A DNA stretch of 64,000 bases from positions 1 to 64,000 of IMG/VR virus record IMGVR_UViG_3300034039_000011. One strand, given 5' to 3'. This document shows, in pieces, positions 500 to 55,631 of the stretch (position 1 is the stretch's first letter; every line of letters starts with the position of its first letter). The translations under genes were made by a program, and so were the position numbers. The stretch comes from a virus. The notes under the pieces are model-generated. The model was not told where the DNA came from. It searched no databases and worked only from the letters and a program-made list of their open reading frames with translations.

Positions 500-3400
500 A
501 GGTAACTTAAACGAATTATATGATACTGGATGTTTTTATATATGTGGATATAATAATACCGTTTTAGAATCTTATAAAGGTGAATTAAGGGGGGATGAAA
601 ACAATATAAGTGGAACAACATATATTGAATCTCACGGAACAGGAAATACCTCATTTGATAATTTAAATATTGTTTTAAATGGATATGATAACTCTGGATT
701 TACTTTGACACATGGTGTAGTATATGGTGAAAGGAATAAAATTAGTGGTTCAACATTTTCAGACATATCTAATGGTTATGACAATAATATAGAAAATTCA
801 TCTTTAATTTCCATTATAAATTCTGTTTCTGGTGAAACAATATATTCAAATAATTCATCAATAATTTCATCAACAGATTCAAAAATATATTCTGCAAACA
901 CTTCCATTATTATTGGTGGAAAAAACAGTGAAACTATTGGTGGTAAATTTAATTTTATTGGTGTTGGTGAATATAATAAAATTGTTAAAGTAAGTGATTA
1001 TATATCTACTACAGCTATATCAACAGACCCAATATTCTCTTCCATATTAAGTGGACAAAAAAATAAAATATTGAATCCTTACCAATATTATTCTCATTCA
1101 GTTATTTGTGGTGGATATGGAAACTTAATAGGCTCATATAAAACATTTTATGGTGGAAATTATCTTTATTATAATCATTTTTCTACAATTGTTGGTGGTA
1201 GATATAATACAATTTTAGGACCACATTCATTTATTGGTGGTGGCGCATTTAACTCCATAAATTCTCATAGTTGGTATGGTAATATAATAAATGGTGGTCA
1301 TTATAACTATATTGGTGATAAGTGGTATAGAAATCAAAATAATACAATTAATATAATTGGTGGAGGGCAAAGTAATACAATTACCACATCTGATGTATAT
1401 ATTAGTGGTAATATAATTGGTGGAGGGCAAATTAATAGTATTGGTAAATATCACATATATTTTGGAGAAAGTTTATATTATAATTATGATAGTTTTTATG
1501 TTAAAAACAATTCAATTTTAGGAGGACGTGCTAATGAAATATTTGGATATTATTTACATGATAATATAATAATAGGTGGTAGTAGTAATAAAATAGCATC
1601 AATAAATAAGACCAATACTTCTCCATCTTCTAAAAGTGTAATTCGCAATATAATATTAAATGGTTCAAGTAGTTCAATAAAATCAATTAACACAAAATAT
1701 TCAATTATTGGTGGTAATAGCAATGGTATAATTAATGATGTATTTAATAAAGATCTTGTAGTACCATTTTCTAAAATTTCTGGTTTTAGAAGAACTGATT
1801 CAACAATAGTATTTGGCGAACATAATTTAATATCAAATTCATTATCTTTTGATACGATTATTAATGGTTCACACAATAAAATATATTTATCAACTTTTAA
1901 TATACCAACAATCGAAACAATTAAACGACCAAATAAAGGTTCATTTACATCAATATTAGGTGGTAGCTATAATATAATTACATGGGATAAAAACTCATCA
2001 AATAAAGAAGTTGTACCAGTAGCTTCAACAATAATAAATGGATTTAATAATAAAATAAGACATTCATCTTATTCTTTAATTGGTGTAGGTTCAGATAATG
2101 TTATTTATACTCAAAATACTTATAATAACATATATAAATCAAACCTAATTTTGGGTGGATTTAAAAATAAAATATCTAATGCTGGAAATTCACCCACTAC
2201 ACCAAATATTTATTCAAATTCTTATAATTCAATATTAAATGGATTTGGTAATATAATAAAAGTAATTGCCGATCCATTATACACTATGTCTAGATTTAAC
2301 ACCATAAATAACGGATATGGAAATATAATAGAAGAAAGAACAAATTATTCAACAATTATAAATGGTAGAAATAATAAAATTAAACATTATAATTCATCTC
2401 ATTTTAATAACTATACAACAATAATAAATGGATATTATAATACTTTACAGGATGGTAGATATACTACTTTATTAAATGGTTATTATAATAAGTCAATACA
2501 AGGAGAATATTCAGTATTATTTGGATATAATAACTATTCAAAAGGCTCTTTTTCTTCTATTGAATTAGGTTCATCAAGTAAAAATTATTATAATTATTCA
2601 ACTCTAACTATGGTTAGAGAATCTTATGTTAGATATTCACAATACTCATTATTATTTGGAAAACATAATAATTTAAATTATCAATATCATACTATAGGTT
2701 TTGGTTATAACAATAATACTAATAATAATGATTATTTAATATTTAACTCCTCAAATTGTAATATTAATTATTCTAATTATTCAATAATCAATTCTGAAAA
2801 TACACAAATAAATAACACAAACTTTTCAATAATTTCAACATCATCTGGTACAATAAATCAAACAACCAACACAATTGGTATTGGTAATACAATAATTAGT
2901 GGTAGTTCAATTAATAGTATAATTATTGATGGTTGGACACATGATGTTTTAAATTCTATTATTATTAATAGTAAAGGGTTTGGTTCTAATTTAATAAGTG
3001 GTAATACTATAATTGGTATTTCTTCTGATTCTTCAACTATAATTGGTAACAACATTATTACAATAAATTCACAAAATTCTACCATAGATAGTGATCAATC
3101 AATATCTATAAATTCAGAACTTTCTACAATTTCAGGTTCAACAAATTCAACTCTTATTGATAGTCCAAATTCACAAATAACATTATCAAACAATTCTTTG
3201 ATTTTAAATTCAGAAAATTCATCTATTGATAATGTTGAAAATGGTTTAATAATAAATTCAAATAATTCAACCCTTACTCATTCAGGTTCTACAATAATCG
3301 GTGGTAGTAATATTGTATCAGTAGATTATGATACTGTACATGTTCAAAAATTAAATATTGGAGAAGTAAGTGCTAGTACAACATCCACAGAACTTCTTGT

Positions 3401-3662
3401 TAGGGAGAGCAATGGAATGATAAACACAATAAATATTCCAAACATTTCAACATCAACAGGAAAATATGTTGCAACTGTATTAATTACTGGTGGGACTCCT
3501 GTAACAATAACACATAATCTTAATACTGAAGATGTAATAGTACAATTAAAAGATTCTACAGGTAAATTAATAATACCAGATGTTGTTAATAATTATACAA
3601 ATAACAGTGTTGATATTCAAGTATCAAATACTGATACATATAAAGTAATAATAATTGGATAA
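3..3662 (+). CDS. Fibre protein of Gly-Gly/Asn beta-solenoid repeats (5' end outside window)
   Basis: The frame is open from the first full codon of the window to the stop at 3660-3662, so at least 1219 residues are present and the true start lies upstream. The TTG at 705 is only an internal Leu codon. Nearly the whole protein is a degenerate repeat of the form 'S-x-I-x-GG-x-x-N-x-I' (for example IIGGGQSNTI, SIIGGNSNGI), typical of beta-solenoid shafts of phage fibres. The first 230 residues are Asp/Asn/Thr-rich and include a 120-residue duplication. The last ~100 residues lose the repeat and form a compact C-terminal domain (motifs VATVLITGG and VIVQLKDSTG) that could be a trimerisation or tip domain. 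It probably decorates the tail or head and contacts the host surface. The fibre call is from repeat style and neighbours; the attachment point in the virion is unknown. Confidence 0.75.
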   Translation: MGNDNDVSDGNNVNVNGDDNNVTDGTNTTVNGNDNTTTLTENTTVNGNTNILYNTECVEVCGDSNEVNDTTSTDVSGNYNTVNYTNNSTISGYGNESTSNTYTTIGGYSNNVSDSDNTSVIGDSNTVDSGNNVNVNGDDNNVTDGTNTTVNGNDNTTTLTENTTVEGNLNELYDTGCFYICGYNNTVLESYKGELRGDENNISGTTYIESHGTGNTSFDNLNIVLNGYDNSGFTLTHGVVYGERNKISGSTFSDISNGYDNNIENSSLISIINSVSGETIYSNNSSIISSTDSKIYSANTSIIIGGKNSETIGGKFNFIGVGEYNKIVKVSDYISTTAISTDPIFSSILSGQKNKILNPYQYYSHSVICGGYGNLIGSYKTFYGGNYLYYNHFSTIVGGRYNTILGPHSFIGGGAFNSINSHSWYGNIINGGHYNYIGDKWYRNQNNTINIIGGGQSNTITTSDVYISGNIIGGGQINSIGKYHIYFGESLYYNYDSFYVKNNSILGGRANEIFGYYLHDNIIIGGSSNKIASINKTNTSPSSKSVIRNIILNGSSSSIKSINTKYSIIGGNSNGIINDVFNKDLVVPFSKISGFRRTDSTIVFGEHNLISNSLSFDTIINGSHNKIYLSTFNIPTIETIKRPNKGSFTSILGGSYNIITWDKNSSNKEVVPVASTIINGFNNKIRHSSYSLIGVGSDNVIYTQNTYNNIYKSNLILGGFKNKISNAGNSPTTPNIYSNSYNSILNGFGNIIKVIADPLYTMSRFNTINNGYGNIIEERTNYSTIINGRNNKIKHYNSSHFNNYTTIINGYYNTLQDGRYTTLLNGYYNKSIQGEYSVLFGYNNYSKGSFSSIELGSSSKNYYNYSTLTMVRESYVRYSQYSLLFGKHNNLNYQYHTIGFGYNNNTNNNDYLIFNSSNCNINYSNYSIINSENTQINNTNFSIISTSSGTINQTTNTIGIGNTIISGSSINSIIIDGWTHDVLNSIIINSKGFGSNLISGNTIIGISSDSSTIIGNNIITINSQNSTIDSDQSISINSELSTISGSTNSTLIDSPNSQITLSNNSLILNSENSSIDNVENGLIINSNNSTLTHSGSTIIGGSNIVSVDYDTVHVQKLNIGEVSASTTSTELLVRESNGMINTINIPNISTSTGKYVATVLITGGTPVTITHNLNTEDVIVQLKDSTGKLIIPDVVNNYTNNSVDIQVSNTDTYKVIIIG

Positions 3663-3673
3663 ATAATAATAAA

Positions 3674-4624
3674 ATGGAAATAAGAGGAAATATACTTTCA
3701 GGTAAAGACAATATCATAAGTGGTAGTTCAAATTCAGACATAATTGGTGGAATTTATAATGTAATTGATAGTGGGTGTAAATATGTTTCTATATTAGGTG
3801 GTATTAGAAATAAAATAAAATCAACAAGTTCATCAATTATAATATCTTCTGAAAATAGTGAATTTGAAAATGGTGATGGTGTAATAATTAAATCAAATTT
3901 TAGCAAAGTATATTATAATTCTAGTAGTGGAATAATTATAGGTGGCGCTTTAAATATTATTAAAAATTATTCAACAAACAATTTTATAAGTGGTGGTTTT
4001 AATAATATAATTAATAATTCAGACTATTCTATTATAATTGGTGGAAAAAATAATACAGTAACTGGTAGCACAAATTCTGATATTATTGGAGGATATAATA
4101 GTATAATAGATGGAAGTAATATATCTGGAATTGGTTCAGGTGACTTTAACAAAATCATAAACAGTTCATTTAGTATAATTGCTGGAGGATACAATAATAA
4201 TATTCATAATAATTCTTTATCATGTTTTATTGGTGGGGGGTATAACAATAAGATATATAATAATAGTAGATATTCAACAATAGTTGGTGGTATTGGTAAT
4301 GTAATATATGGTGGTGGTGGTAATATTGCATCATACAATGTAGTCGGTGGTTATTATAATAATGTTTATTATGCAAGACAAAATTTTATTGGTGGGGGTA
4401 GATATAATATAATTAAAAACGTTTCATCTACAAGTGTAAACATAACTAGATATTCATCAATAGTTGGTGGGGATAAAAATTTAATAGAGCAAAGTGGATA
4501 TTCATTTATTGGTGGTGGTCATAGTATAACAGTTAATGCTGATGCTAATGGAGATTTATTAAGTGATTTAACTAATGGTGAGGTTGATTTATATATTTAT
4601 ATTTCACCAATACAAATAATATAA
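3674..4624 (+). CDS. Second Gly-Gly/Asn-repeat fibre protein
   Basis: A 316-residue protein starting 11 bp after the large fibre gene, in a different frame with its own ATG. The same repeat (IIGGKNNTV, FIGGGYNNKI, IVGGIGNVI) runs from about residue 5 to 285. It lacks the C-terminal domain of its larger neighbour and ends in a short Asp/Leu/Ile-rich tail. The shared repeat and tight spacing suggest duplication and co-expression, perhaps as a shorter partner fibre. No catalytic motif is visible. Leader is A/T-rich without a Shine-Dalgarno sequence. Confidence 0.65.
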   Translation: MEIRGNILSGKDNIISGSSNSDIIGGIYNVIDSGCKYVSILGGIRNKIKSTSSSIIISSENSEFENGDGVIIKSNFSKVYYNSSSGIIIGGALNIIKNYSTNNFISGGFNNIINNSDYSIIIGGKNNTVTGSTNSDIIGGYNSIIDGSNISGIGSGDFNKIINSSFSIIAGGYNNNIHNNSLSCFIGGGYNNKIYNNSRYSTIVGGIGNVIYGGGGNIASYNVVGGYYNNVYYARQNFIGGGRYNIIKNVSSTSVNITRYSSIVGGDKNLIEQSGYSFIGGGHSITVNADANGDLLSDLTNGEVDLYIYISPIQII

Positions 4625-5844: not shown

Positions 5845-8800
5845 TTAAACTTCATTATCTTTTAAACAATAACAAGTTTTTCCATCATAACCACAATTTT
5901 CATTCCCACAATTTATGTTATCATTTCCTTCAAGAAATACATCTTTACCCAATTTTGACATTTCTTGAAACCATATATCAAATTTATTATTATTGTTTAA
6001 AGAAAATTTAACCCAATTATTTTTATACCATCCTTTTCTAAATAATGCGGTTTTTTTGTATTTAAAAATACTTTTTAATGGTGCTATTTTAACGCCCCAT
6101 TTTTTTGAATAAAAATAATATTCATTATTAAATTCTTTAATATCAAGAAATGTTAATATTTTTTTTGGCAAATTCCCACTTTTCTTTATTTTAACCAAAT
6201 CATCATATTCAAGTCTTTTAATAATATTAAATAACATTTCCTTTTCATTTAATATTGATTGCTTTTTCTTTTTCTCATTTCTTATTTTCCAATCTTCCAC
6301 AATTTTATCAAATTCAATTTCATCAATATTATTTGGTATTTTATTAACATTAACCCAAAATTCTATTTCATCATCTGACATTTTAAGTAAATCATCTAAA
6401 TTATCTTGGTCTGATGGTTTTATTGGATAACCTGATACCAATTCACATTCTTTTTTTGTAAAATATGATCTTTCTTCAAGAAAGAGTTTGCCAGTTTTTC
6501 TATCTTTTTTTACTGATATTAAAATATTGTCTCTAATATCTTCATTAAATACCACTAACATTCTTTTTATTCTTTTATTTAAAGCATCTATGTATTTGGA
6601 TACATTATATTTTATTTTTTTTGAATTTCCATTTTCCAAATCTTTTTCATCAATATACACACAATTTAATATTATATCTTCAATTTCACCATTTTTATTT
6701 TTTTTAACGGTTACATCTCCTGCATTTTTGTTATCACTTGTATTCACGTAATACACAGTATCGCCCAAATCCTTTTTTATCTTATGTTTTATTAACAATT
6801 CCATGTGGGCTTGTCTTGATTTAAGTATTCCTGTTTTTGTTCTTTCTTTTGTATATATGTTAATATAATCTTCTACTGTTTGCTTAACACGTTTTTTTGT
6901 TGCAATTTCTGAAATTGGAATTTCCATGTTAAATATTTTTTCCACATAATCATAATAATATTCTATAAATTCATATCCTTTTCCATCAAGCAGTAAGGAA
7001 ATTCCATTTTTAATAAAATTTTCTATATATGTGGGTATTGTTTTTGAACTAAATGTATTTCCGACAATTGTTATATCATCTCCTTTTTTATATGCATAAT
7101 TTTTTCTTGCAAAGTTAATTGTTGAATCAATATATTCATCAATATCAAGTCCCAATCTTCCAATCATATATTTTTCATTAAATTCGCATAACACGGCTTC
7201 AATTCCATTAACCACCGTATTTGGGGGATATTTTTTGGTTTTCCAATGCGAACCCTTCACCACATATTTATATTCATCAATATTTTCGGGTATTTTAAAA
7301 TTAAAACCATCCGTGTTATGAGCAACTATATTTCCAATCCCAGCAATAAACGTTCCATCCGCTGATATATCATATACATAATCATCATAAGAATCTTTTA
7401 TTTCAATATTAACAACATAATCTTCTAATATATTATTCTCTTCATTATCAATTTTATTCCTTTTATATATTTTAAGAACAAAATTTTCATTATCTGAATC
7501 AAAAATAACATCAACATCATATCCTACATCTCTTAACAATAAATTTAATGCACATATTAATTGATATGATTTATGGGAAATTTCATTTATATTATCAATT
7601 GAATCCGAACCATTATATCCTTTGGCAAATCCTTCCAAAAATATTTTTTTTGTATTAATATCAGAATTTAATATTGCTTCTGATATTTTTTCAATTTTAA
7701 AATCTCCAATTCCGATAAAATATCCATTTAAACGAGCAAATGATTCCATTACTTTTATTCCATTCTTTGGCAAATCAAAATTTATGGTGTCTATTTTATC
7801 ACCATAACTTAAATTGGTTGGTTTTATTTCAATATTATTTGAAAATAATGAATGGTCTGATGTGCATTCAATAAATCCGTGTTTGGTATTTATTCGATAT
7901 ATCTTTTTATTTGTTTTATGTCTGTATATATATTTTATATCTTTCCAACCATTTTTTGTTAAAATTTGATAATTTTTTGGTGAAAAATCTCTTTGTTGTC
8001 CGTTTATATCAATATAATCATCATTAAACAATTCTTTTATTGGCAATATATTAACCATCATTGTATCCTTATATCTTATGTATACTGGTGTTTCTCCAGT
8101 AACGGAATCTCCAACCAATGGTTCAAATCCTTTTGACATCATATATTTAACCATCAGTCTTAATAATTGCCTTCCCCTACAAGTTGTTTCTTCTGCTGCT
8201 TTTATGTCCCCCCAGGGAAATATATATGGCGCACCGAATGAACCAAAGAATGAGTTTGCCAAAATCTTTATCGGCATTTCTTCTTTTGATATTTCTTGTA
8301 TTTTTTTTAATACCTTTTCTTTATCATCAAATTCATTCAATCTTGATTTTAAATCTTCTTTTAAAAATTTAAGTTCATCACGTTCATCAACCACATATTC
8401 CAAAAACATAATCATTGCATTCGTAAAATCATATTCGCTCTTTATGTTATATGTTATTTCGGTTTTTGGATATAGTGCGGCATAATCAAATTTAACAACA
8501 TTTCTTTCAAAACCAACTTTTAATAATCTTGATAATCCGCCGACAAATGATTTTTTTTCACCAAAATCGGGTATTGCAAGATTGTTATAATATGACCATG
8601 ATGTCATTATCAATTTCCAAATGGCTGCCGTTCCAGATGTGGTTGCCGTTTGGAATGTTGTTGGAATTATTTTGGATATGTGATAACTTGCCTTATTATA
8701 TATGTTATCAACCTCCATTGTTTCCCATAAGTCATCAATCAAATATCTGTTAACAATATATTCCCCATTAACTTCCTTATATTTTCCAGAATTTATTTTG

Positions 8801-12621: not shown

Positions 12622-15327
12622 TTAACCAAAATTATTTTTTAATATATAATCTAAAATATATTCAGATTCAGAATAAGAATTTTTATTTTCTGATAGAATA
12701 GTATTTATAATATCTTTTTTATTTTTTAACACATTCCACATTATTTCGCTCACGGTATTAACAAACAGTTGGTATTTTACAATTGTTCGTTTTGTTTGAC
12801 CAATTCTATAACATCTATCTTCTGCTTGTTCATTATTACCAGTAACCCAATCAAAAGAATTAAAAATTACATAATTTGATTTTGTTAATGTAATTCCCAC
12901 TCCAGCAGAAATAATATTTCCGATAAACACTTTTATTTTATCATTATTTTGAAATTCATCAACACTTATTTGTTTATCCTTATCAGACATCCCCCCATAA
13001 TGTATAACGCTTTTATTTCCGAAATGCTCATGCAATTCCATTAATTCATCCGTAAATGTGGTAAATATAACAACTTTATTTCCATTTTCAATAATTTCAT
13101 TTACATCTTCTATTGTATATGGGATATTTTCCATTGCAATAAATTTCCTTAATAATGTAAGTTCCACCAATTCTCTTCTTGGTCTCCCTCTCTTTTTTTC
13201 TTCCCTTCTTTTTTCCAAATAATCTTCCCACAAATTTTCATATTCAAGCCTTTTCTCTTGTGTTAATTCATGATATTGTGGCATTATTATTTTTTCTGGC
13301 AAATCAATAACCTCATCTTTTAATCTTCTAAGCAAAACATTTTTTGTTTTTCTTGAAAGTTCATCAAGATTTGATGCTCCATTTGTTATCCATATTGTTT
13401 TCTTCTTTCCGCTTTTTAAACGTTTATTTATTTTTTTTGCATCACAATATCTTTTAACATAAAAATCCCATCTGTCAGCCACAGGATGTCTTATTAATTT
13501 TAATAAATTATAAAAATCAATTGGTCTGTTAACAATTGGGGTTCCAGTCAACAACCACACCCTTTCAATTCCATGATTTAATATTATATCGCTTAATATT
13601 TTTGCACGTATTGATTTATAATTTTTAAGATAATGTGCTTCATCAATAATAACCAAATCAAATTTGCTATTAACAATTTGTTTGTTATTCTCAATTAATA
13701 TCCCTTCTTCATTTCTTATCCCATTCCCTATTGTGTGGAAGTTTTTAAGAATATCATAATTTATTATTGTGAATCTGCTACTATCCCATTTTCTTCCATT
13801 AACAATAACCACATTATCATCAAAATTTTTTATTTCACGTTCCCAATTTATTTTTACAGATGATGGACATACAATTAGAACTTTTTTTGCATTTATTTCC
13901 AATGCCGATATTATGGCTTGATATGTATTATGTGTAACAATCCCACCTTTTGTTACAAATAAATGAGATTTTGAATCCAATAAATAACAAACGCTTTCAT
14001 TCATCCCTACATATTCAATATCAACAATATATTTTTCATATTTTGAATTTAAATGTTTATGTTTTAAATAAAAAAATAAATCCATATCAATTGACATGGG
14101 TATTATTTCTTCTGGAAATATAAGGCTTAATTTATAATAATCATTTTCTTTTATATATTCCCCAACACCACCCAAAGATTGTGTAACCTCAATTATATCT
14201 TTTGCCAAATTTATATATTTGGTTTTATAAATAATTTTTAAATATTCATCCAATTCCAATTCAACATTGTTGTCAAATAATCCTTTTAATAAAGAAATTC
14301 TATCATATATGGAAGAATATTTGTATTCATTTTTTATTTCTTTATTTTTTAAATTTGGTTTGTCCTTGTAATATGTTTCTGATAAAATTTTCCCATATAA
14401 ATAAGGGTCTGTAATTAACGCTTTATTATTTTTAAATTCAATTGGTTTTGGCAATTGTATTTTCCATATATATTCATCATTTATTTTATAATATGTTTTT
14501 ATTTTTTCACCATCAACATTTATTTCATTATCTTTATCACATAATTGTTTTGTGGTTAAAAACAACTCTTTATTATCATCTCTTTTAATAACCTTCCATA
14601 AATGGTCATCCGTAACGGTTAATGACGTATTATCATTAAATTTTACCTTATATAACTTTCTTTTATCCTCATTATATATAACTTTTTTAACCTTTACTGG
14701 TTCACCATTTTCATCAATTAAAAAATCACCAACTTTAATATCCTTTGATTTCACAATTCCATTTGGTGTATAAACATATTCATTTAAACCAATACATTTT
14801 CCCAATCCCATATCATCTGATAATATGCAACCTTTTCTTGAAACCAAAAATTTTATTCCTTCCTCTTGATGTTTAAATGGTTTTCTTTTTAATTTATCCA
14901 ATTTTTCATATTTTGAAAAATCTATATCTATTTCTACATTATCAAAAAACAAATCGTCCACCAATTGGGTTTTTGGTAACCAAAACAATTCGGAATTTTT
15001 TTGATTTTTTGTTAATTTTCCAATAACATGATAAGAATTTTCATTTTCAGCCAAAAATTTTTCCACCAGCATTTTTTTGGGAACAAATCCCAAATTATAT
15101 TTTTCTTTGAAATGTTCACCAAGATATGGGGTAATTTCAATTATTTTATTTATTGTTTCGGGTTCTTTATTATAATTGTTTATTATATAATCAATTTGTT
15201 TTGTTGTTAAACTTTTTCTTTTCAATACCTCAACATCATATTTTAATTTTTTTAAATATGGATTATTTCCATTATAATTTAACAACAAATTATATGCTTC
15301 TATATATTTTAGCTCTTTGTCTAACAC
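12622..15327 (-). CDS. SNF2-family DNA helicase/translocase with intein in Walker A
   Basis: A 901-residue superfamily 2 ATPase of which 290 residues are an intein, leaving ~611. Motif I is split: DDMGLGK at 171-177 joins to Thr468 after splicing. Further motifs: DEAH near 559-563 (IIDEAHYLKN), motif III (LLTGTPIVNRP), motif V (ISAGVGITLT) and motif VI (QAEDRCYRIGQT), the last being the SNF2 signature. In phages such proteins act in replication, recombination or fork restart, similar in role to T4 UvsW. The start is GTG at 15327: an in-frame stop lies directly upstream and the next Met is about 85 residues in. The N-terminal ~150 residues are not recognised. Confidence 0.92.
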   Translation of the reverse strand: MLDKELKYIEAYNLLLNYNGNNPYLKKLKYDVEVLKRKSLTTKQIDYIINNYNKEPETINKIIEITPYLGEHFKEKYNLGFVPKKMLVEKFLAENENSYHVIGKLTKNQKNSELFWLPKTQLVDDLFFDNVEIDIDFSKYEKLDKLKRKPFKHQEEGIKFLVSRKGCILSDDMGLGKCIGLNEYVYTPNGIVKSKDIKVGDFLIDENGEPVKVKKVIYNEDKRKLYKVKFNDNTSLTVTDDHLWKVIKRDDNKELFLTTKQLCDKDNEINVDGEKIKTYYKINDEYIWKIQLPKPIEFKNNKALITDPYLYGKILSETYYKDKPNLKNKEIKNEYKYSSIYDRISLLKGLFDNNVELELDEYLKIIYKTKYINLAKDIIEVTQSLGGVGEYIKENDYYKLSLIFPEEIIPMSIDMDLFFYLKHKHLNSKYEKYIVDIEYVGMNESVCYLLDSKSHLFVTKGGIVTHNTYQAIISALEINAKKVLIVCPSSVKINWEREIKNFDDNVVIVNGRKWDSSRFTIINYDILKNFHTIGNGIRNEEGILIENNKQIVNSKFDLVIIDEAHYLKNYKSIRAKILSDIILNHGIERVWLLTGTPIVNRPIDFYNLLKLIRHPVADRWDFYVKRYCDAKKINKRLKSGKKKTIWITNGASNLDELSRKTKNVLLRRLKDEVIDLPEKIIMPQYHELTQEKRLEYENLWEDYLEKRREEKKRGRPRRELVELTLLRKFIAMENIPYTIEDVNEIIENGNKVVIFTTFTDELMELHEHFGNKSVIHYGGMSDKDKQISVDEFQNNDKIKVFIGNIISAGVGITLTKSNYVIFNSFDWVTGNNEQAEDRCYRIGQTKRTIVKYQLFVNTVSEIMWNVLKNKKDIINTILSENKNSYSESEYILDYILKNNFG
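13927..14796 (-). other. Intein in SNF2 helicase
   Basis: Residues 178-467 of the helicase. It starts with Cys (CIGLNEYVYTPNG), carries block B with His-Leu-Trp (TDDHLWKV), a Cys in block F (SVCYLLDS) and ends GIVTHN before Thr468. The insertion is exactly between Lys and Thr of the P-loop. The middle has degenerate endonuclease motifs: DPYLYGKILSET in place of a 'DPYLLGLLLGDG' type motif, and LLKGLFDNNVE in place of 'LLRGLMDTDG'. The acidic catalytic positions appear altered, so homing activity is probably lost while splicing residues are kept. Confidence 0.9.
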
Positions 15328-25316: not shown

Positions 25317-26615
25317 TTAATCATAAAAAACATAATTTAAAACCATGCTTTTTGATGTTGAATTTTGCTGAAAAACATTAAATGAATGTTTACATTCATT
25401 TAATGAAACTCGATATTTCAATTTCAAGTTTTTTATTTCAATAAAGAATTTATTCCAATCTGTATATTTGGTGACCATTTCCTTCCATTGGTGTTTCACC
25501 AACAGTTTTGGATAAAATCCCTTATTGTTTTTCTTTATTCTATATTCATAACCTCTTCTTGCGATTTCTATCGAAGCATTAACTGCATCTGTATAGTCAT
25601 ACATTAAATTACCAATAAAACTCGAATATGCTGGATTAACTGAATATAGCTTAATTCCTAAAATGTTTAATCTTTTTGTTAAGTTATCGATAAACAAATT
25701 TCTTTTCCAAAGATTTTCATTCTTTCTGTTTGATATTTTAATTGTTGAAGAACCTTTAAAATGTAAATCTTCAATAAAAACTGTTTTACATTTAAATTGT
25801 TTGGCTATTAAAGATATAGATTTTGATATTTCAAATGTTTCAAACTTCAATTTGTTTTGAAAGTATTTCATTCTATTTGAATTGGAACTTAACTTTTCAT
25901 TCATTATTTTATCGAATATTGGTTTCAAGCTAAATTCTCGTGCATAAATTACTTTTTCATTTTCTAAAACAGAAATACCAATTGTATCTGGGTTTAAGTC
26001 TATACCTAAGTATCTATTTTCATTTAATTTAATCGGTTCTTGTTTAAATTCTTCAAAACTTATGTAAATATAGTTTAAGTCAAGTTTTATTGAATATGTA
26101 TATCCTTTTTGTCCCTGTTTAACTTCATTAAGTTGCTGAAGTTTAAATAACTCTTTCTTTATATTGTTTCTTAAATTAGGTAATTGTAGTTCGATATGTT
26201 TATTTCTGTTTAATTTAAAGATGATTTGGTTGTTTTTAATTACATCTAATTTAAATGACCTATTTCCTTGTTTAAGTTCTTCGCCTTGAATATTTATAGG
26301 ACATAATCTTTTAAGTTGATAATCTTCTTTAGATATTTTATTTTTTAGTCTATTGATTAGATTATGTTTACCACCAAAAATAACTTTTTCATTTTTAAAC
26401 CTTGTTTGTATTGCTTTACCATCTTTAATAGCACACTGAATTAACCATGAATTAAGTAAGTTAATGTTGTTCAATGATTTAGTTAACTTTCTTATATCCT
26501 TTTCTGTTTTGCCTTCAAGAAAACGATTATAGCTATACCTAACAACATTAGAATATTGTTTAAGTATAGAAGTTAAATCTTCAGTAGTTTTATATGGTAA
26601 TTTAATTGTTTTCAC
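25317..26615 (-). CDS. tnpB: TnpB-family protein lacking the zinc ribbon
   Basis: A 432-residue RuvC-type protein of the TnpB family, whose members are RNA-guided DNA nucleases encoded by IS200/605 and IS607 elements. RuvC I is visible near residue 208 (YLGIDLNPDTIGISV), RuvC II near 283 (CKTVFIEDLHFKG) and RuvC III near 342 (YDYTDAVNASIEIARRG), so all three acidic residues are present. The CxxC...CxxC zinc ribbon between II and III is absent, replaced by NPAYSSFIGNL. The start overlaps the end of tnpA by 14 bp, suggesting translational coupling. A perfect hairpin lies inside the 3' end of the gene. Nuclease activity is plausible but unproven. Confidence 0.88.
   Translation of the reverse strand: MKTIKLPYKTTEDLTSILKQYSNVVRYSYNRFLEGKTEKDIRKLTKSLNNINLLNSWLIQCAIKDGKAIQTRFKNEKVIFGGKHNLINRLKNKISKEDYQLKRLCPINIQGEELKQGNRSFKLDVIKNNQIIFKLNRNKHIELQLPNLRNNIKKELFKLQQLNEVKQGQKGYTYSIKLDLNYIYISFEEFKQEPIKLNENRYLGIDLNPDTIGISVLENEKVIYAREFSLKPIFDKIMNEKLSSNSNRMKYFQNKLKFETFEISKSISLIAKQFKCKTVFIEDLHFKGSSTIKISNRKNENLWKRNLFIDNLTKRLNILGIKLYSVNPAYSSFIGNLMYDYTDAVNASIEIARRGYEYRIKKNNKGFYPKLLVKHQWKEMVTKYTDWNKFFIEIKNLKLKYRVSLNECKHSFNVFQQNSTSKSMVLNYVFYD
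25376..25405 (-). ncRNA. 13-bp hairpin in 3' end of tnpB, possible guide-RNA part
   Basis: CATTAAATGAATG (25376-25388) and CATTCATTTAATG (25393-25405) form a perfect 13-bp stem with a 4-base loop, inside the tnpB coding region about 60 bp before its stop. TnpB guide RNAs (omegaRNA) arise from the 3' end of tnpB and the element end, so the hairpin could be part of one. It might also simply be an mRNA-stabilising stem or a site used in transposition. Confidence 0.35.
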
Positions 26616-27198
26616 TTTTCTGTTTTAATACTTTTTTTAAAGCGTTTAATTCTTTTCTTCTATTAGAATACATTTTCATACTAAAATGATGTATAATTGA
26701 AATTAAATCTTGAGTTAATTCTGTCTGGAAATCTTCTTCTTTAGTTAAATTAACAACTTCAATTTCAGTACCAAACATTTTAAATATGTATTCAAAATAG
26801 TTATAACCAAATCTCGCTAATCTATCTTTGTATGAAATAAATACTTTATTTACTTTATTTTCAACAACCAATTTAATAAGCTCGTTCAAGTCTTTTCTCG
26901 ATTCATTCATACCAGAAGCAATATCTTTAAAGACATAATCAACTTTATATCCGTTTGAAATTGCATATTCTTTCAATATTTGTTCTTGTTTATTTAAATC
27001 ATCTTTTTGTTTTGTATTTGAAACTCTACAATAAATTACATTATAACGATTTGCATCAGTTTCAATATTTTCTTCAAGCCAATAGAAATAAATGCCATTA
27101 ACTTTTTTAAATTTTACTTTACCTTTCTTACGTCTTTCATATAAGGCTTGATTTGATAAACCAAGTATCTTTTTAAATTCTTTAGATTTTACCCACAT
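26602..27198 (-). CDS. tnpA: IS607-family serine recombinase
   Basis: A 198-residue transposase. Residues ~1-45 are a MerR-like helix-turn-helix (MWVKSKEFKKILGLSNQALY, then a wing ending YFYWLEE). The resolvase catalytic domain follows: YCRVSNTKQKDDL with the nucleophilic Ser near residue 60, a 'DIASGMNESRKDL' loop, and SYKDRLARFGY near residue 125 with the active-site arginines. Length and layout are standard for IS607 TnpA, where the HTH precedes rather than follows the catalytic domain. It appears intact. Confidence 0.92.
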   Translation of the reverse strand: MWVKSKEFKKILGLSNQALYERRKKGKVKFKKVNGIYFYWLEENIETDANRYNVIYCRVSNTKQKDDLNKQEQILKEYAISNGYKVDYVFKDIASGMNESRKDLNELIKLVVENKVNKVFISYKDRLARFGYNYFEYIFKMFGTEIEVVNLTKEEDFQTELTQDLISIIHHFSMKMYSNRRKELNALKKVLKQKSENN

Positions 27199-27300: not shown

Positions 27301-29439
27301 TTATAATAAACCTTTTATAATATTTTTTTCTTTTATTGATTTGTTTTCTTTTGTTTGAAGGAATGTTATCGGGTTTGTTTTGCTTGCATCAATTATCATT
27401 CTTGAATTATCAAATATAATATCTTCAAATACAACACCATCTTTACCAAATCTGGATTTTAAAACCGCTAATGTTGCTGTATTATATTCTTTTTGTTCCA
27501 ATGTCTTGGCTATTGATAATAAGAAATGTCCTATTTGTCCTTTTTTTATTGAACCACCCATTTGATTAGATTGCACCACATCTGAAGTTATGGATGATCT
27601 ATTTCCTTGTACGGCTGTCCAACCAGCTATATCAAAATCAGATAATAAACTTTCAAATTCTCTCATCACACTCCCTTCTCCAGAATATTCATCTTTAAAA
27701 TCTTTTGATGGTGATACACAATCAATATAATCCAACACAATCATATCTGGTTTAAATCCTTTTGAAATCAATCTCCTAATCAATTGTCTTATGTTGTTTA
27801 TAGTTACCCTATCACTTGGCATTTTTTTAAGCACTATATTACCTGGTTGTGCTTTCATTAAATTTACAACTTCAATTATTTCGTCCCTATGATTTGATAA
27901 TTCTAATAATTCATATTTACCACCCATCCAACAAGCATAATGTTTTCTTTGAATTTCGGTTAATTTATCTTCAAAAAATACTTGCAATACATTCTTACCA
28001 TTATTTTTACAAGAATTTGCTATTTTAGTTAGCATGGTTGTATTATGTGTTACTATAAAATCATCTGTAAGATATAGTTTTTCCTCATCATCAATAGATA
28101 TGCAAACACACTCTTTTTCTTTATCCAGTAACTCTACTTTTACAATTTTACGCATATTAAATTCATCAACCCCAGAACCATAATATTCAATTTTGTTATA
28201 CATGTAAGAATCTCTAAATACTAATTTTAGTAATTTTTTATATGAAAGTGTATCTTCAACTAACACAATCCCACCCATAGAATTTACCATATTTACGAAA
28301 AAATTGTATGTTTCATCTGATAATGAATTATCAATATATATTTCATCACCATTTTTATATTGCTCAATAAAACCTTTAACCAATTCTATTTTTTCATCTA
28401 AAGATAAGTTATGTGATATTATATACGATTCTGGAAAATCATATCCGTTTAATGCAATATGTTTACCCAGACTTTCATAAAATTCTTTACTTCCATTACT
28501 TATATTATGTTCTTTTAATGATATATTTGTACATAATGGTATAAATAATTCTTTATTTTCATTTAATAATGATATAATTTCTTCAGTATTGATTACCACA
28601 TATTTACCATCTAAATAAACTTTCCATAAATGAGAAATATCACATTCTGTTGAGGAATTATCATTAAAAATTATTTTACATACTTTTCTTTTACCTTGAG
28701 GAAAAATACCATTTATTTTTGATATTTTATTTCTTGGTGTTATTATTTTATCACCTATTTTTAATTTTCCAATTTCTTCCCAACCATTTATTGTCATTAC
28801 TTTACGGTTTAATGGTTGAGCTTTACCTACACCGAATGGTGCTAATATTATGCCAAGCTCCCCTTTGCTTAAACCGCCGTTCATTATTTCATCCAAACCT
28901 TTAATTCCTGTTGGTATAGGATCTCTATAATCATCTCTTAACGCATCTTCTGGATTTTCAAAAACGGATTTTGTATCATTTTTATCTTCACCAATCTCTA
29001 AAAATTTCTTAAATTCATTTTCTATAATATCTATATTATTAACTTCACCACTATCTATTAATTTATTTAATTTTATTGATAATTTTTTTGCTTCTTGTTC
29101 TTTGCAAAATCTAATGGCTAATTTTTTAATAATTTCACCATCATTTAATTTGGTGTTTTTTATTTTTAAAATTGTTGATTTTATTATTCCCTTAACACTT
29201 TCTTTTTTTGCCTTTGATAATAATCTTATTTCTAGTGAACCAATATCTGGGATTGTCCCATCTTCATCAAAAGCATTTTTAATTTCTCTAACAATAATTC
29301 TTAAAACATCTATATCAAAATAGTTTGGTTTTAAAATATCTAATATTGTTTCTGCAAATTTATAATCAGTTAGGATTTGTAATATTAATCTATACTGATA
29401 ATCAACACCTAAATAACCCAGATTTTTATTTTCAGACAT
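27301..29439 (-). CDS. dnaB: Replicative DnaB-type helicase with intein in Walker A
   Basis: A 712-residue protein that reduces to ~452 residues without its 260-residue intein, the usual size of DnaB/T4 gp41 helicases. The N-terminal ~150 residues are the helical primase-interacting domain. The P-loop FGVGK ends at residue 206 and continues with Thr467. Walker B (MIVLDYIDCVSP) is near 566-575 and the Q/R motif (GWTAVQGNRSS) near 610. The C-terminus (LAVLKSRFGKDGVVFEDIIF) matches the RecA-fold end of DnaB helicases. It should unwind DNA at the fork with the window's family B polymerase. The MazG-like gene lies 27 bp upstream on the same strand. Confidence 0.93.
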   Translation of the reverse strand: MSENKNLGYLGVDYQYRLILQILTDYKFAETILDILKPNYFDIDVLRIIVREIKNAFDEDGTIPDIGSLEIRLLSKAKKESVKGIIKSTILKIKNTKLNDGEIIKKLAIRFCKEQEAKKLSIKLNKLIDSGEVNNIDIIENEFKKFLEIGEDKNDTKSVFENPEDALRDDYRDPIPTGIKGLDEIMNGGLSKGELGIILAPFGVGKAQPLNRKVMTINGWEEIGKLKIGDKIITPRNKISKINGIFPQGKRKVCKIIFNDNSSTECDISHLWKVYLDGKYVVINTEEIISLLNENKELFIPLCTNISLKEHNISNGSKEFYESLGKHIALNGYDFPESYIISHNLSLDEKIELVKGFIEQYKNGDEIYIDNSLSDETYNFFVNMVNSMGGIVLVEDTLSYKKLLKLVFRDSYMYNKIEYYGSGVDEFNMRKIVKVELLDKEKECVCISIDDEEKLYLTDDFIVTHNTTMLTKIANSCKNNGKNVLQVFFEDKLTEIQRKHYACWMGGKYELLELSNHRDEIIEVVNLMKAQPGNIVLKKMPSDRVTINNIRQLIRRLISKGFKPDMIVLDYIDCVSPSKDFKDEYSGEGSVMREFESLLSDFDIAGWTAVQGNRSSITSDVVQSNQMGGSIKKGQIGHFLLSIAKTLEQKEYNTATLAVLKSRFGKDGVVFEDIIFDNSRMIIDASKTNPITFLQTKENKSIKEKNIIKGLL
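28042..28821 (-). other. Class 3-type intein in DnaB helicase
   Basis: Residues 207-466. The first residue is Ala (AQPLNRKVMTINGWEEIGKL), not Cys or Ser, and the intein ends FIVTHN before Thr467. Block B has His-x-Trp (CDISHLWKV), block F has Cys (CVCISIDD) and block G has Thr before His-Asn. This Trp-Cys-Thr set is the mark of class 3 inteins, in which the block F Cys starts splicing. The central region (EKIELVKGFIEQYKNGDE, then a stretch ending NSMGG) looks like an eroded LAGLIDADG endonuclease. Confidence 0.85.
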
Positions 29440-36365: not shown

Positions 36366-36767
36366 CTAACCTTGTGATAAGATATACTGACGTATTGTTT
36401 CTGGTGATGCTTCACCTATTGAACAGACAAAATAACCATCACTCCATAAGAGACGCTGATACCAATAATATTGACGTAATGTAGTATGATGTAACAGCCA
36501 TAACTGACGAGTAGATTCTTGTTTTAACCTACGGACTAATTGAGAAACAGATATACGTGGTATATACCTAATTAAGAAATGTACGTGATTAATGTCGCTT
36601 TCCATAACTTCAATTTCAAAATCTGAATTATCAGCTATGGAACTGAATATATCTTTTAAATCATCATTTAACTGACCGACTAAGATATTTCTACGATACT
36701 TGGTTACTAAGATTAAATGACATTTTAAGTAATGTTTTGAACGATTTGTACTGATGTAGTGAGACAT
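36366..36767 (-). CDS. tnpA: Y1 (HUH) transposase of IS200/IS605 family
   Basis: A 133-residue single-strand DNA transposase. The opening (YISTNRSKHYLKCHLILVTK, then YRRNIL), the HUH motif HVHFLI near residue 62 and the catalytic Tyr near residue 128 (ETIRQYILSQG) are all present. Length is standard. It cuts and joins single-stranded element ends, often at replication forks. No sign of decay. Confidence 0.95.
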   Translation of the reverse strand: MSHYISTNRSKHYLKCHLILVTKYRRNILVGQLNDDLKDIFSSIADNSDFEIEVMESDINHVHFLIRYIPRISVSQLVRRLKQESTRQLWLLHHTTLRQYYWYQRLLWSDGYFVCSIGEASPETIRQYILSQG

Positions 36768-36867
36768 ATTGTGGAAGTTTTTTACCCGAAGACGGAAACT
36801 TTTACAATATGTTGAACGGCATTTTACAGAAAAAATAAAAAAACTTTAAAATGAAAGCAACTTTTTG

Positions 36868-36875
36868 TATATTTG
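36868..36875 (+). promoter_or_regulatory. Host-type -7 box (TATATTTG) before tnpB
   Basis: TATATTTG lies 17 bp before the tnpB ATG at 36893, an exact TAnnTTTG match within the element's central region. It supports origin of the element in a Bacteroidota genome. Confidence 0.45.
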
Positions 36876-36892
36876 TACGTATTTAATAATAT

Positions 36893-38065
36893 ATGTTGAA
36901 GTCATTTAAATATAGAATTTCACCTACGAAGGCACAAGCCGAACTAATCAATAAGCATATTGGTAGTTCAAGGTTTGTGTATAACCTTGCGTTGGAGACC
37001 AAAACAATGGCTTACGCTGGTAATCAAATAAACCTATCTTGTTTTGACCTAATCAAACAATTGCCAGATTTAAAGAAAGAATGTACTTGGTTAAAAGAAA
37101 TTAATTCTCAATCATTACAAGCACCAATAAGAAATTTGGATAATGCTTTCACAAGATTTTACAAAGGACAAGGGAACTTTCCTAAATATAAATCTAAAAG
37201 AAGCGGTAAACAATCATTCCATATCCCACAAAATGTAATTGTAGAGAATGGGAAGTTAATCATTCCTAAATTTAAAGAGGGAATTGATATTGTATTACAT
37301 AGAGAAACCAAAGGTGTAATTAAATCAGCAACTATATCAAGAACACCAACAGGTAAATACTTTGTTTCTATTCTTTGTGATACTAAAGAAGAAATACCAA
37401 CTAAAGCATCAATAACCGAAAGTACGACTATTGGTATCGACTTAGGAATTAAAGACTTTGCAATTACATCAAAAGGTGAAGTTTTTGAAAATCCAAAATA
37501 CCTACGTAAAGCACAAAGTAAATTAAAATATGTACAACGTAAATATTCAAAACACAAAGGTAAGCGTACTAAAAAGAAACTTGCCAAACTACACGAAGAT
37601 GTAGTAAACAAGCGCAAAGATTTTTTACACAAAGTTTCAACTAAACTAATTCGTGAGAACCAAACGATAGCACTTGAAACTCTAGCTGTAAAGAATATTG
37701 TTAAAAACCACAATTTAGCACAATCTATTAGTGATGCAAGTTGGTCAACTTTTGTCTCTATGTTAGAATACAAGGCTGAATGGTATGGTAAAAATATCCT
37801 ACGAATAGGGCGATTTGCACCATCATCAAAGACTTGCTCCTGCGGAGTAATCAACAAGGACTTAAAACTATCCGACAGAGAGTGGACTTGTAAGTCTTGT
37901 GGAACTACACACGATAGAGATATTTTAGCTGCTTGTAACATAAAATCTTTTGCCTTAAAAAATATCTTATCTGGAACGGATAGGAAAAATCAGGACGAAC
38001 TGCCCACGTTGGTGGGAGTGTTGACTCCTGAAGCCCAACCCATCGCCTCTGGCGTGGGTGGGTAG
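36893..38065 (+). CDS. tnpB: TnpB RNA-guided nuclease of IS605-type element
   Basis: A 390-residue protein with a complete TnpB set. The N-terminus (LKSFKYRISPTKAQAELINK) is the family opening. RuvC I is TTIGIDLGIKDFAI near residue 180, RuvC II is QTIALETLAVKNI near 262, the zinc ribbon is CSCGVINKDLKLSDREWTC followed by KSCG near 315-338, and RuvC III is THDRDILAACNI near 341. The tail EAQPIASGVGG overlaps the right-end hairpin of the element. It probably cuts the donor site with a guide RNA from the element end. Unlike the IS607-type TnpB in this window, it keeps the zinc ribbon. Confidence 0.95.
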   Translation: MLKSFKYRISPTKAQAELINKHIGSSRFVYNLALETKTMAYAGNQINLSCFDLIKQLPDLKKECTWLKEINSQSLQAPIRNLDNAFTRFYKGQGNFPKYKSKRSGKQSFHIPQNVIVENGKLIIPKFKEGIDIVLHRETKGVIKSATISRTPTGKYFVSILCDTKEEIPTKASITESTTIGIDLGIKDFAITSKGEVFENPKYLRKAQSKLKYVQRKYSKHKGKRTKKKLAKLHEDVVNKRKDFLHKVSTKLIRENQTIALETLAVKNIVKNHNLAQSISDASWSTFVSMLEYKAEWYGKNILRIGRFAPSSKTCSCGVINKDLKLSDREWTCKSCGTTHDRDILAACNIKSFALKNILSGTDRKNQDELPTLVGVLTPEAQPIASGVGG

Positions 38066-38717: not shown

Positions 38718-39767
38718 TTAATAAATAACTTCTTTAAATGTGATTATTTTATTATCATATATAAATGTGAATATATACAAACCAACATTAAGTTTAAATG
38801 TAAATTTATCTATGTTTATATTTGATTTTATAATTAATTTACCGCTAATATCATAAACATAAAGAATGTAATTAACATCATTATTGGTTGTAATTTCAAC
38901 AAATGAGTTCTTTTTTTTTATATTAAAAATAACATCATCATTATCTTTTTTATTAAATTTAAATGTTGTTAATTTATTAATATCACCATTAACATCTTTT
39001 TCATATAAAACATAATAATTTAAACCGTTTTTTATATTATAATCATTAAAATAATATTTATTTAATGTTCGTTTTTTTGGCGTTATTGTCCCATAATTAA
39101 CTAAACCATTTATAAATTTATATATGTAATATTTTTCTATTGAACTTTCATCTGATGTTGAAAAATATAATGTTAAATAATCGCCATTATCATAAATTTC
39201 TTTTTCCAATATTTTTGTTGGTAATGGAAAGTCATATGTAATACATATTTCAATATAATCTATACATAATACATTATTATTTAAATTTGATTCAAATTTA
39301 ACTTTTAAACCAAAATTTGAATCATTTACATCAGAAGGTGTCAATGAAAGTGAATTATCAGTATAAATTGTAGTATCATCAATACCATTATTTCCAATTA
39401 TTGAACAACCACTTTCTTTTATTCCATTAATACCATTATTATATAATCGTATTTCTGATTTTTTACAACCATTATTTAATAACCAATAACCTTCTATTAA
39501 TATATCTATGTTTGTTATGATTGCATTATTTGGGATTGAAAAATTAAATCCAACAAAATAACCATCTATCTTTTCCTTTTTATTTAATACTATACAATTA
39601 TAATCATTGTCTGATGATGACAGGTTGTTACCTTGAGATGCTAATGAATTGTTAAAATCTATGCCTTTATTCTTAATATATATTGTTGGACTTGAACATA
39701 CCACATTTTGAGAAAAACCATAAATGGATATAAATAATAATAATTGAATTATAAAAATTCTAATCAT
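38718..39767 (-). CDS. Secreted protein with T9SS-type C-terminal sorting domain
   Basis: A 349-residue protein. The N-terminus (MIRIFIIQLLLFISIYGFSQ, then N) is a textbook signal peptide of the flavobacterial kind, with cleavage likely before or after Gln. The middle contains a beta-sandwich (~25-180) and a fibronectin-like part (~185-275). The last ~75 residues resemble the type A T9SS sorting domain: a strand, NYILYVYDISGKLIIKSN, KFTFKLNVGLYIFTFIY and a final FKEVIY. In hosts this tail sends proteins across the outer membrane. Its ATG overlaps the stop of the preceding virion gene by 4 bp, so it is expressed late. Confidence 0.75.
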   Translation of the reverse strand: MIRIFIIQLLLFISIYGFSQNVVCSSPTIYIKNKGIDFNNSLASQGNNLSSSDNDYNCIVLNKKEKIDGYFVGFNFSIPNNAIITNIDILIEGYWLLNNGCKKSEIRLYNNGINGIKESGCSIIGNNGIDDTTIYTDNSLSLTPSDVNDSNFGLKVKFESNLNNNVLCIDYIEICITYDFPLPTKILEKEIYDNGDYLTLYFSTSDESSIEKYYIYKFINGLVNYGTITPKKRTLNKYYFNDYNIKNGLNYYVLYEKDVNGDINKLTTFKFNKKDNDDVIFNIKKKNSFVEITTNNDVNYILYVYDISGKLIIKSNINIDKFTFKLNVGLYIFTFIYDNKIITFKEVIY

Positions 39768-53934: not shown

Positions 53935-55631
53935 ATTTCACTGCTTTTATTTACTTTAAATTTATCACTTAATACATATCCTCTTGGATCAGATGGAAAC
54001 TCATCTGAATATAACCCATATAATCCATTAGGGTCTTGTCTTTTTAATAATAAACATATTTTTTTATGTATATAATGCCTTCCATTTATAAATGGGTAAT
54101 CTAATGGTTTATTGCTAGTGTCAGATATACCTAAATCTAATAAATCTCTCCATAACCATCTACCATCTCCCAAGTCCTCAGCATAATCAGGTATTCCATA
54201 TGTAGATTCATCACCTTGTTCCACATAATTTGAAAATTCTCTAATTTTAATTAAATGATGAGGTTTATAATAATATCCTTCATATCTTGGTGATACAGTA
54301 ATTGAGCTTTCAGCACCTGTAAGATCAGTAATAGTTCCACCAAGTATTCTATTATTTGTGTTAAATCTATGCATAACTTCAGCCAAAACAGTTTCTTTAA
54401 CCTCAAACCTGTTATATTCTACAATATCACCAAAAAAGTGTGTGTTACTTATATCTACATTTGTTTCTAATGACACATGTGGAATTGGTGATGAACCATT
54501 ATGTATTCTATGTATATCAGGTATTATATTTGGAAAATTTATCATTGATGGTATATATGGTGCTTCAATACCAGATTTTATTTCCGTAAACATATCACCA
54601 TTACCATCATTAAAATTACTTCTTTTTTTTATGAATGTAAAATATAATTCTGAAATTGGTCTGTTTAAATTATCTCTTATATTAGCTAAATCAATATCAT
54701 AATTTAATAAAAAATGATAATTTACATCATTAAAAATATTTTTTGAAAAAGATAATTTATTTATTAAAAATTTATCAGTATCAACATATCCGTTAACTAT
54801 TGGTATTTTTTTAAACATTCTGGCATAATATGTTGATTCCTCACCTCTAAAAATTCTAACCATTCTTGAGTTGTTTGATATTTCACCACCTTCCATCTCA
54901 ATTGAAAAGAAATAATCACTAAGTTCATTTTTTTCATTTCCTATTTTAAAAACAGTATAAATACCATCTTTACTATTATCAAGTAAATTTTTCAATCTCA
55001 CAGTATCTCCAGGTAATAAATTATGTTTTATTGGCGTTGCAAATTGATATACTGTTTTCCCACCTATCTCTAATTGTGTTGATTCAATAATTATTATTCC
55101 ACCATCAATTAAATCAATTGTTTTGTTATAATCGGGATATGTGATAGCCAAATCCCAATTTGTTGGATTTATTTCAAAATGATTTCTAGATGGATACATG
55201 TCGTTCCATTTACAACCATCTGTTGATCCTATGTTTGGGTCTAGATAACCAAACCACCCATCAACTTCTTTTAAATTTTGTTCTATTGCTTCTTTATAAG
55301 TAATATCTTCTTCCTCATCAAAATCAACTGTATTTGGTGGGTATGACCTATCCCTAAAATAGGGATTAACCATAAAAGTCTCAAAACTATTATCACCAGT
55401 AATGTTCATTAAACAATTTGAAAATATTGTTGTTACATCAAAAGTAAACCTATATTTATATGATTCTTGTCTTTCTTTATTAAATTGTTCACTTTGACTT
55501 ATTATTTTATTAATTTCAGAATATGGTAATAATTTTGATTTTGAAGATAATATAATTTTGTTCTTTTTGCTTATATCACTTTTTTCCTTTGATTTTGAAC
55601 TTTCAAATATGTATTTAAATTTATTTTCCAT
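53928..55631 (-). CDS. Large virion-block protein, unknown
   Basis: A 567-residue protein. The first ~40 residues are basic and Ser-rich (KYIFESSKSKEKSDISKKNK), probably disordered. Distinct segments are YRFTFDVTTIFSNCLMNITG, a proline/acid-rich loop (PPNTVDFDEEEDITYKEAIE), and 'VNYHFLLNYDIDLANIRDNL'. The sequence looks like a large baseplate-associated structural protein; no catalytic or receptor motif is recognised. Starts with 1-bp overlap on the SprB-repeat gene and ends with a 7-bp overlap. Confidence 0.5.
   Translation of the reverse strand: MENKFKYIFESSKSKEKSDISKKNKIILSSKSKLLPYSEINKIISQSEQFNKERQESYKYRFTFDVTTIFSNCLMNITGDNSFETFMVNPYFRDRSYPPNTVDFDEEEDITYKEAIEQNLKEVDGWFGYLDPNIGSTDGCKWNDMYPSRNHFEINPTNWDLAITYPDYNKTIDLIDGGIIIIESTQLEIGGKTVYQFATPIKHNLLPGDTVRLKNLLDNSKDGIYTVFKIGNEKNELSDYFFSIEMEGGEISNNSRMVRIFRGEESTYYARMFKKIPIVNGYVDTDKFLINKLSFSKNIFNDVNYHFLLNYDIDLANIRDNLNRPISELYFTFIKKRSNFNDGNGDMFTEIKSGIEAPYIPSMINFPNIIPDIHRIHNGSSPIPHVSLETNVDISNTHFFGDIVEYNRFEVKETVLAEVMHRFNTNNRILGGTITDLTGAESSITVSPRYEGYYYKPHHLIKIREFSNYVEQGDESTYGIPDYAEDLGDGRWLWRDLLDLGISDTSNKPLDYPFINGRHYIHKKICLLLKRQDPNGLYGLYSDEFPSDPRGYVLSDKFKVNKSSEIC

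Follow-up and report, generated by a model that had tools for sequence, protein, structure and literature searches.

A phage replicative helicase with a class 3 intein in its P-loop, predicted to splice in cis

The replicative helicase encoded by the phage fragment analysed here is interrupted by a predicted class 3 intein, which very probably splices in cis at the DnaB-b type site, in the P-loop of its host protein. The stretch of DNA under study, hereafter the window, makes up 64,000 of the 64,152 bases in one virus record. This degree of confidence is justified by exact boundaries, invariant residues, the spacing of the Trp, Cys and Thr residues of the class (WCT), matches to class 3 structures, and the occurrence in relatives of inteins at the same site as well as of empty sites that restore GVGKTT. 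The chemistry and the activity, like the inactivity of the endonuclease, are presumed. The helicase intein adds to its class a clean example, with correct boundaries, in the P-loop of a replicative helicase from a phage.

The intein-containing precursor of this gp41/DnaB-like replicative helicase (712 aa; 27301..29439) is encoded on the minus strand, as are all inteins and residues located below. Its N-extein (residues 1-206; 28822..29439) ends with LAPFGVGK, the first half of the P-loop, and its C-extein (residues 467-712; 27304..28041) begins with the P-loop Thr, which is the +1 residue and putative second branch point. Between them lies the intein of 260 aa (helicase residues 207-466; 28042..28821), which runs from Ala1 (block A; codon 28819..28821) to Asn260 (codon 28042..28044), and an earlier note on this DNA had placed it exactly, to the base. 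The insertion splits the P-loop as LAPFGVGK/AQPL...FIVTHN/TTMLTK (slashes mark the splice junctions). Excision in silico makes the GVGKTT P-loop intact again and leaves the extein frame unbroken, and intein-less relatives of the helicase at 25 loci span the exact insertion point with a gap of 0. The exteins match phrog_19 (E=7e-46), the best PDB matches to the host protein are gp41-type DnaB-like helicase structures, and Pfam DnaB_C stays below its cut-off on this protein. Judged by these matches, the host is a T4 gp41/DnaB-like phage helicase and not a cellular-type DnaB, which refines the name DnaB helicase given in the earlier note. Directly downstream of the helicase, an IS607-type transposase and a TnpB-like gene are found (25317-27198).

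Alignment places the residues of the class 3 signature in the conserved intein blocks. Block B carries the catalytic His64 (B:10; 28630..28632) and, two residues further on, Trp66 (B:12; 28624..28626), the W of WCT. Block F carries Cys240 (F:4; 28102..28104), the putative initiating nucleophile, and block G carries Thr258 (G:5; 28048..28050), the T of WCT, followed by the C-terminal cleavage residues His259-Asn260 (G:6 and G:7; 28042..28047). All six of these residues, from His64 to Asn260, are invariant columns of the 26-row alignment A2, in which relatives were read from their loci. This is the block alignment by which the earlier note had proposed to check its Trp/Cys/Thr set, and the Trp and Cys do fall in blocks B and F, with the Thr in block G. 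Given the composition of the helicase intein, W, C and T would fall at three preset positions by chance with a probability of about 5e-6. Asp61 (B:7; 28639..28641) gives block B a DxxH motif instead of TxxH, a motif also known from M. smegmatis DnaBi1 (PMC6195587). Residue 1 is Ala, in keeping with class 3 inteins, which need no standard N-terminal nucleophile and mostly start with a non-nucleophilic residue, and the +1 residue is Thr, one of the nucleophiles (Thr, Ser or Cys) looked for at this position.

An intein-only search of viral contigs gave no matches, and relatives were retrieved with a helicase extein search together with a profile search, which gathered 139 distinct WCT inteins from viral and genome contigs. 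The WCT set is present in 139/139, a tally that is partly biased since the profile used for extraction was derived from WCT inteins. The spacing from F:4 to G:5 is also constant, at 18 residues in 139/139, and it is the distance that separates Cys240 from Thr258. Because Ala1 opens 105 of the 139, GK precedes 120 and the +1 residue is Thr in 128 (Ser in the other 11), AQPL after GK and before T represents the standard form. Ala1 as an unusual feature could therefore be ruled out, as it is the commonest class 3 start here, and the emphasis that had been laid on it was misplaced. Class 3-type inteins occur in Bacteroidota-labelled contigs of the collected set at L136, L157 and L183. The helicase intein is a genuine but ordinary class 3 example, and it leaves the understanding of a class with 1701 members counted in 2020, 82.5% of them with LAGLIDADG motifs (PMC7891396), unchanged. 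Class 3 inteins have been viewed as monophyletic and phage-derived (PMC3196547); the earlier note saw added weight for this view in the window copy, but one extra phage example does not tell an origin in phages apart from a later spread between them.

The AlphaFold (AF2) model of the helicase intein has a mean pLDDT of 81.8, rising to about 90 over most of the splicing domain, and adopts the HINT fold. Compared by Foldseek, this model gives TM-scores on the target of 0.74-0.83 with the class 3 structures 6bs8, 6riy and 6rix, and it also matches other inteins and PI-SceI. Sequence-profile comparison retrieved 6rix, 6bs8 and gp41-1. Block alignment, solved class 3 structures and the large set of relatives agree with the class 3 assignment already made in the earlier note, so that by every feature of sequence and modelled fold examined the intein is class 3, and it is predicted to splice. 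Some positions of its splicing domain have diverged, given the long end branch (1.25) and a best identity over the blocks of 51%.

By analogy with proven homologues, whose class 3 chemistry has been described (PMC4031507, PMC5222942, PMC6195587), Cys240 would most likely attack the bond between Lys206 and Ala1, with His64 as helper and Asp61, Trp66 and Thr258 in positioning roles, to form a branched thioester at block F. The N-extein would then move to the +1 Thr, Asn260 would cyclise with the assistance of His259, and an O-N shift would link GVGK to TT and so make the ATP-binding loop whole again. The helicase should stay inactive before splicing, and the window copy may persist because it is still able to splice, its endonuclease being gone.

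The WCT residues alone are no proof of activity. A dead class 3 relative, devoid of the F:4 Cys and the B:10 His, has been described (PMC3196547), and the degenerate endonuclease and long branch of the window intein would also suit a copy that has kept its frame and lost splicing, leaving the helicase non-functional and the phage either defective or using another helicase. Such a fate is nevertheless highly unlikely: the window intein keeps both residues that are absent from the dead relative and indeed every splicing residue, the extein frame is intact, and a dead intein in an essential replication gene should not persist. Even less credible is class 1- or class 2-like splicing, in which the +1 Thr would attack directly and Cys240 would merely assist. 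In its favour, class 2 (KlbA) inteins also start with Ala1 and a Cys is found at F:4 in some class 1 inteins (PMC4031507). Against it, Cys F:4 is accompanied by Trp B:12 and Thr G:5, and proven class 3 inteins are among those closest to the window intein in sequence and fold. Moreover, all known class 2 inteins are KlbA orthologues (PMC4031507, PMC3196547), and the window intein, with a helicase as host and the WCT set present, does not belong to that class.

Another reading is that class 3 splicing was retained to serve as a conditional switch, such as one gated by redox state through Cys240 and the nearby Cys238 or Cys48, in an intein that is no longer mobile. A C48-C118 disulfide inhibits M. 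smegmatis DnaBi1, which occupies the same P-loop site (PMC6195587), and the window intein has Cys48, a C238-V-C240 arrangement and a lost endonuclease. However, a Cys at F:2 is common (36/139), a Cys at the Cys48 position is present in only 3/139, and the window Cys48 lies one residue off Msm C48 in the profile alignment, although phmmer pairs the two. A fixed intein will in any case lose its endonuclease by default, and a retained switch is improbable. Similarly little credence is given to its extension to all three inteins of the window, which would have lost their endonucleases and kept their splicing residues because splicing of three replication/helicase proteins had become a retained post-translational switch and was not a homing remnant. 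Cis-splicing by the class 3 route, with a decayed endonuclease, is the preferred reading.

The remnant of this LAGLIDADG homing endonuclease occupies approximately residues 70-222 (28156..28614), and its catalytic motifs are lost. Pfam gave no LAGLIDADG match in the window helicase intein, nor in those of L035 (269 aa) and L039 (233 aa), and found LAGLIDADG_3 in L025, L026, L032 and L061 (1.6e-7 to 2.4e-10). In the alignment, the second motif reads LLDTDG in L025 versus FIEQ plus a deletion in the window (EQ and two gaps in place of DTDG), and the two motifs with catalytic acidic residues of an active homing intein are not found in the window copy. Inteins at the same site in helicases of uncultivated phages (L025, L026, L032, L077, L080, L096, L107 and others) share with it the layout LAPxGVGK/A...THN/TT, Ala1 and the WCT set. 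The seven named here and L075 are 361-369 aa long with both LAGLIDADG motifs intact, whereas the window copy is reduced to 260 aa. One detectable motif is left in L105 (356 aa) and L061 (301 aa), and the other short copies are those of L035 and of L039, L040 and L042 (each of these three 233 aa). To judge from its sequence, the endonuclease that once mobilised the helicase intein has decayed and is presumably inactive.

The helicase site is occupied sporadically, in the pattern of a homing element. On the extein tree, intein presence and absence require 8 changes, at least 5 of them forced by well-supported branches, the count of 8 being approximate as several long branches are partly due to truncated or doubly interrupted exteins. 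The relatives display the homing cycle, from sites that lack an intein through full-length mobile copies to several that are shortened, and L004 and L025 form an empty/filled pair whose helicases are almost identical. A 106-column tree sets the window intein apart from the same-site helicase inteins; the AU test does not reject a single clade (p=0.425), and the window branches are long. Recent horizontal arrival was also considered, and base composition gives no sign of it, with a GC content of 23.8% in the intein against 26.0% for the window as a whole and 25.6% and 28.5% for the two exteins.

Two further inteins were found in the window. A Snf2-type helicase ORF (12622-15327), to which a match at 14623-14665 gave the lead, hosts a second class 3-type intein of 290 aa (13927..14796), also at a P-loop site, with the layout DDMGLGK/CIGLN...HLW...VCYLLD...IVTHN/TYQ. 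It combines Cys1 with the WCT set (W67, C270 and T288), its model reaches a pLDDT of 92.1, and its endonuclease region is degenerate. This mixed form is not unique, since the collected set holds four other Cys1 WCT inteins, which are mutual near-copies, and several with Ser1. The account of such Cys1 and Ser1 class 3 inteins given here rests on the present sequence set and on general background. The third intein (264 aa; 7315..8106) lies in DNA polymerase B, with the layout GD/SVTGETP...IVAHN/TDG, and is matched by Pfam and NCBIfam intein models. Having Ser1, an Asp at the apparent F:4 and no WCT set, it looks like a class 1 intein. A search of 50,697 phage records gave almost no relatives of it, just one weak match. 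No endonuclease domain was detected in any of the three inteins. Three endonuclease-less inteins in one phage, two of them of one class, make a handy set for studying intein fixation and decay, and together with the filled/empty allele series at the helicase site they lend the window a modest added interest.

Among known systems, M. smegmatis DnaBi1 (DnaB-b, PDB 6bs8) shares with the helicase intein Ala1, the DxxH block B, equivalents of its W67, C118 and T137, the P-loop insertion, a replicative helicase host and the lack of a working endonuclease. It differs in that the window host is a phage gp41-like helicase, that about 150 residues of endonuclease remnant are kept in the window, and that the +1 residue is Thr in the window and Ser in DnaBi1. 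The intein of Bacteroides phage BS-TP3 gp36 (GenBank PQ571276.1; GMGK/AQPL...HIW...CVCIKV...THN/TT) resembles that of the window in Ala1, P-loop site and class 3 signature, and both are carried by phages of Bacteroidota (in the window's case a probable assignment), but its host is a different P-loop ATPase, annotated as a terminase, and its LAGLIDADG motifs are intact. The class 3 prototypes from mycobacteriophage Bethlehem DnaB and Deinococcus radiodurans Snf2, known here from papers, share mechanism class and helicase hosts with the window intein. The gp41-1 intein has the same helicase family and overall HINT fold, but it is a split class 1 intein, and halves like it occur at TAVQGNR/C in L032 and L077, a site that is empty in the window. 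The helicases of L032 (1264-3711, 3753-4901, 4897-5382), L077 and L042 contain two inteins, a class 3 one at the P-loop and a gp41-1-like split class 1 N-half at TAVQGNR/C; in L032 a DUF559/REase_MTES_1575 nuclease-like ORF comes next, and after it the C-half together with the end of the helicase. To judge from this arrangement, a doubly interrupted helicase of the L032 type would depend on cis splicing as well as trans splicing.

The window comes from a contractile-tailed, T4-like phage, with sheath and baseplate wedge genes. Two regions (38718-39767 and 55631-59638) encode phage-borne proteins with a T9SS type A sorting domain (24.0 bits against a cut-off of 23) and SprB repeats (E=3e-16), traits of Bacteroidota surface proteins. 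These neighbouring ORFs lend indirect support to a Bacteroidota host, which the earlier note had also named. An IS200 transposase is found at 36366-38065 with a TnpB that is 51% identical to that of Methanohalobium. Two ORFs at 705-4624 (985 and 316 aa) consist of short repeats, rich in Asn/Ser/Ile and in Gly (IIGGxxNxI), and probably encode a repetitive beta-solenoid-like fibre.
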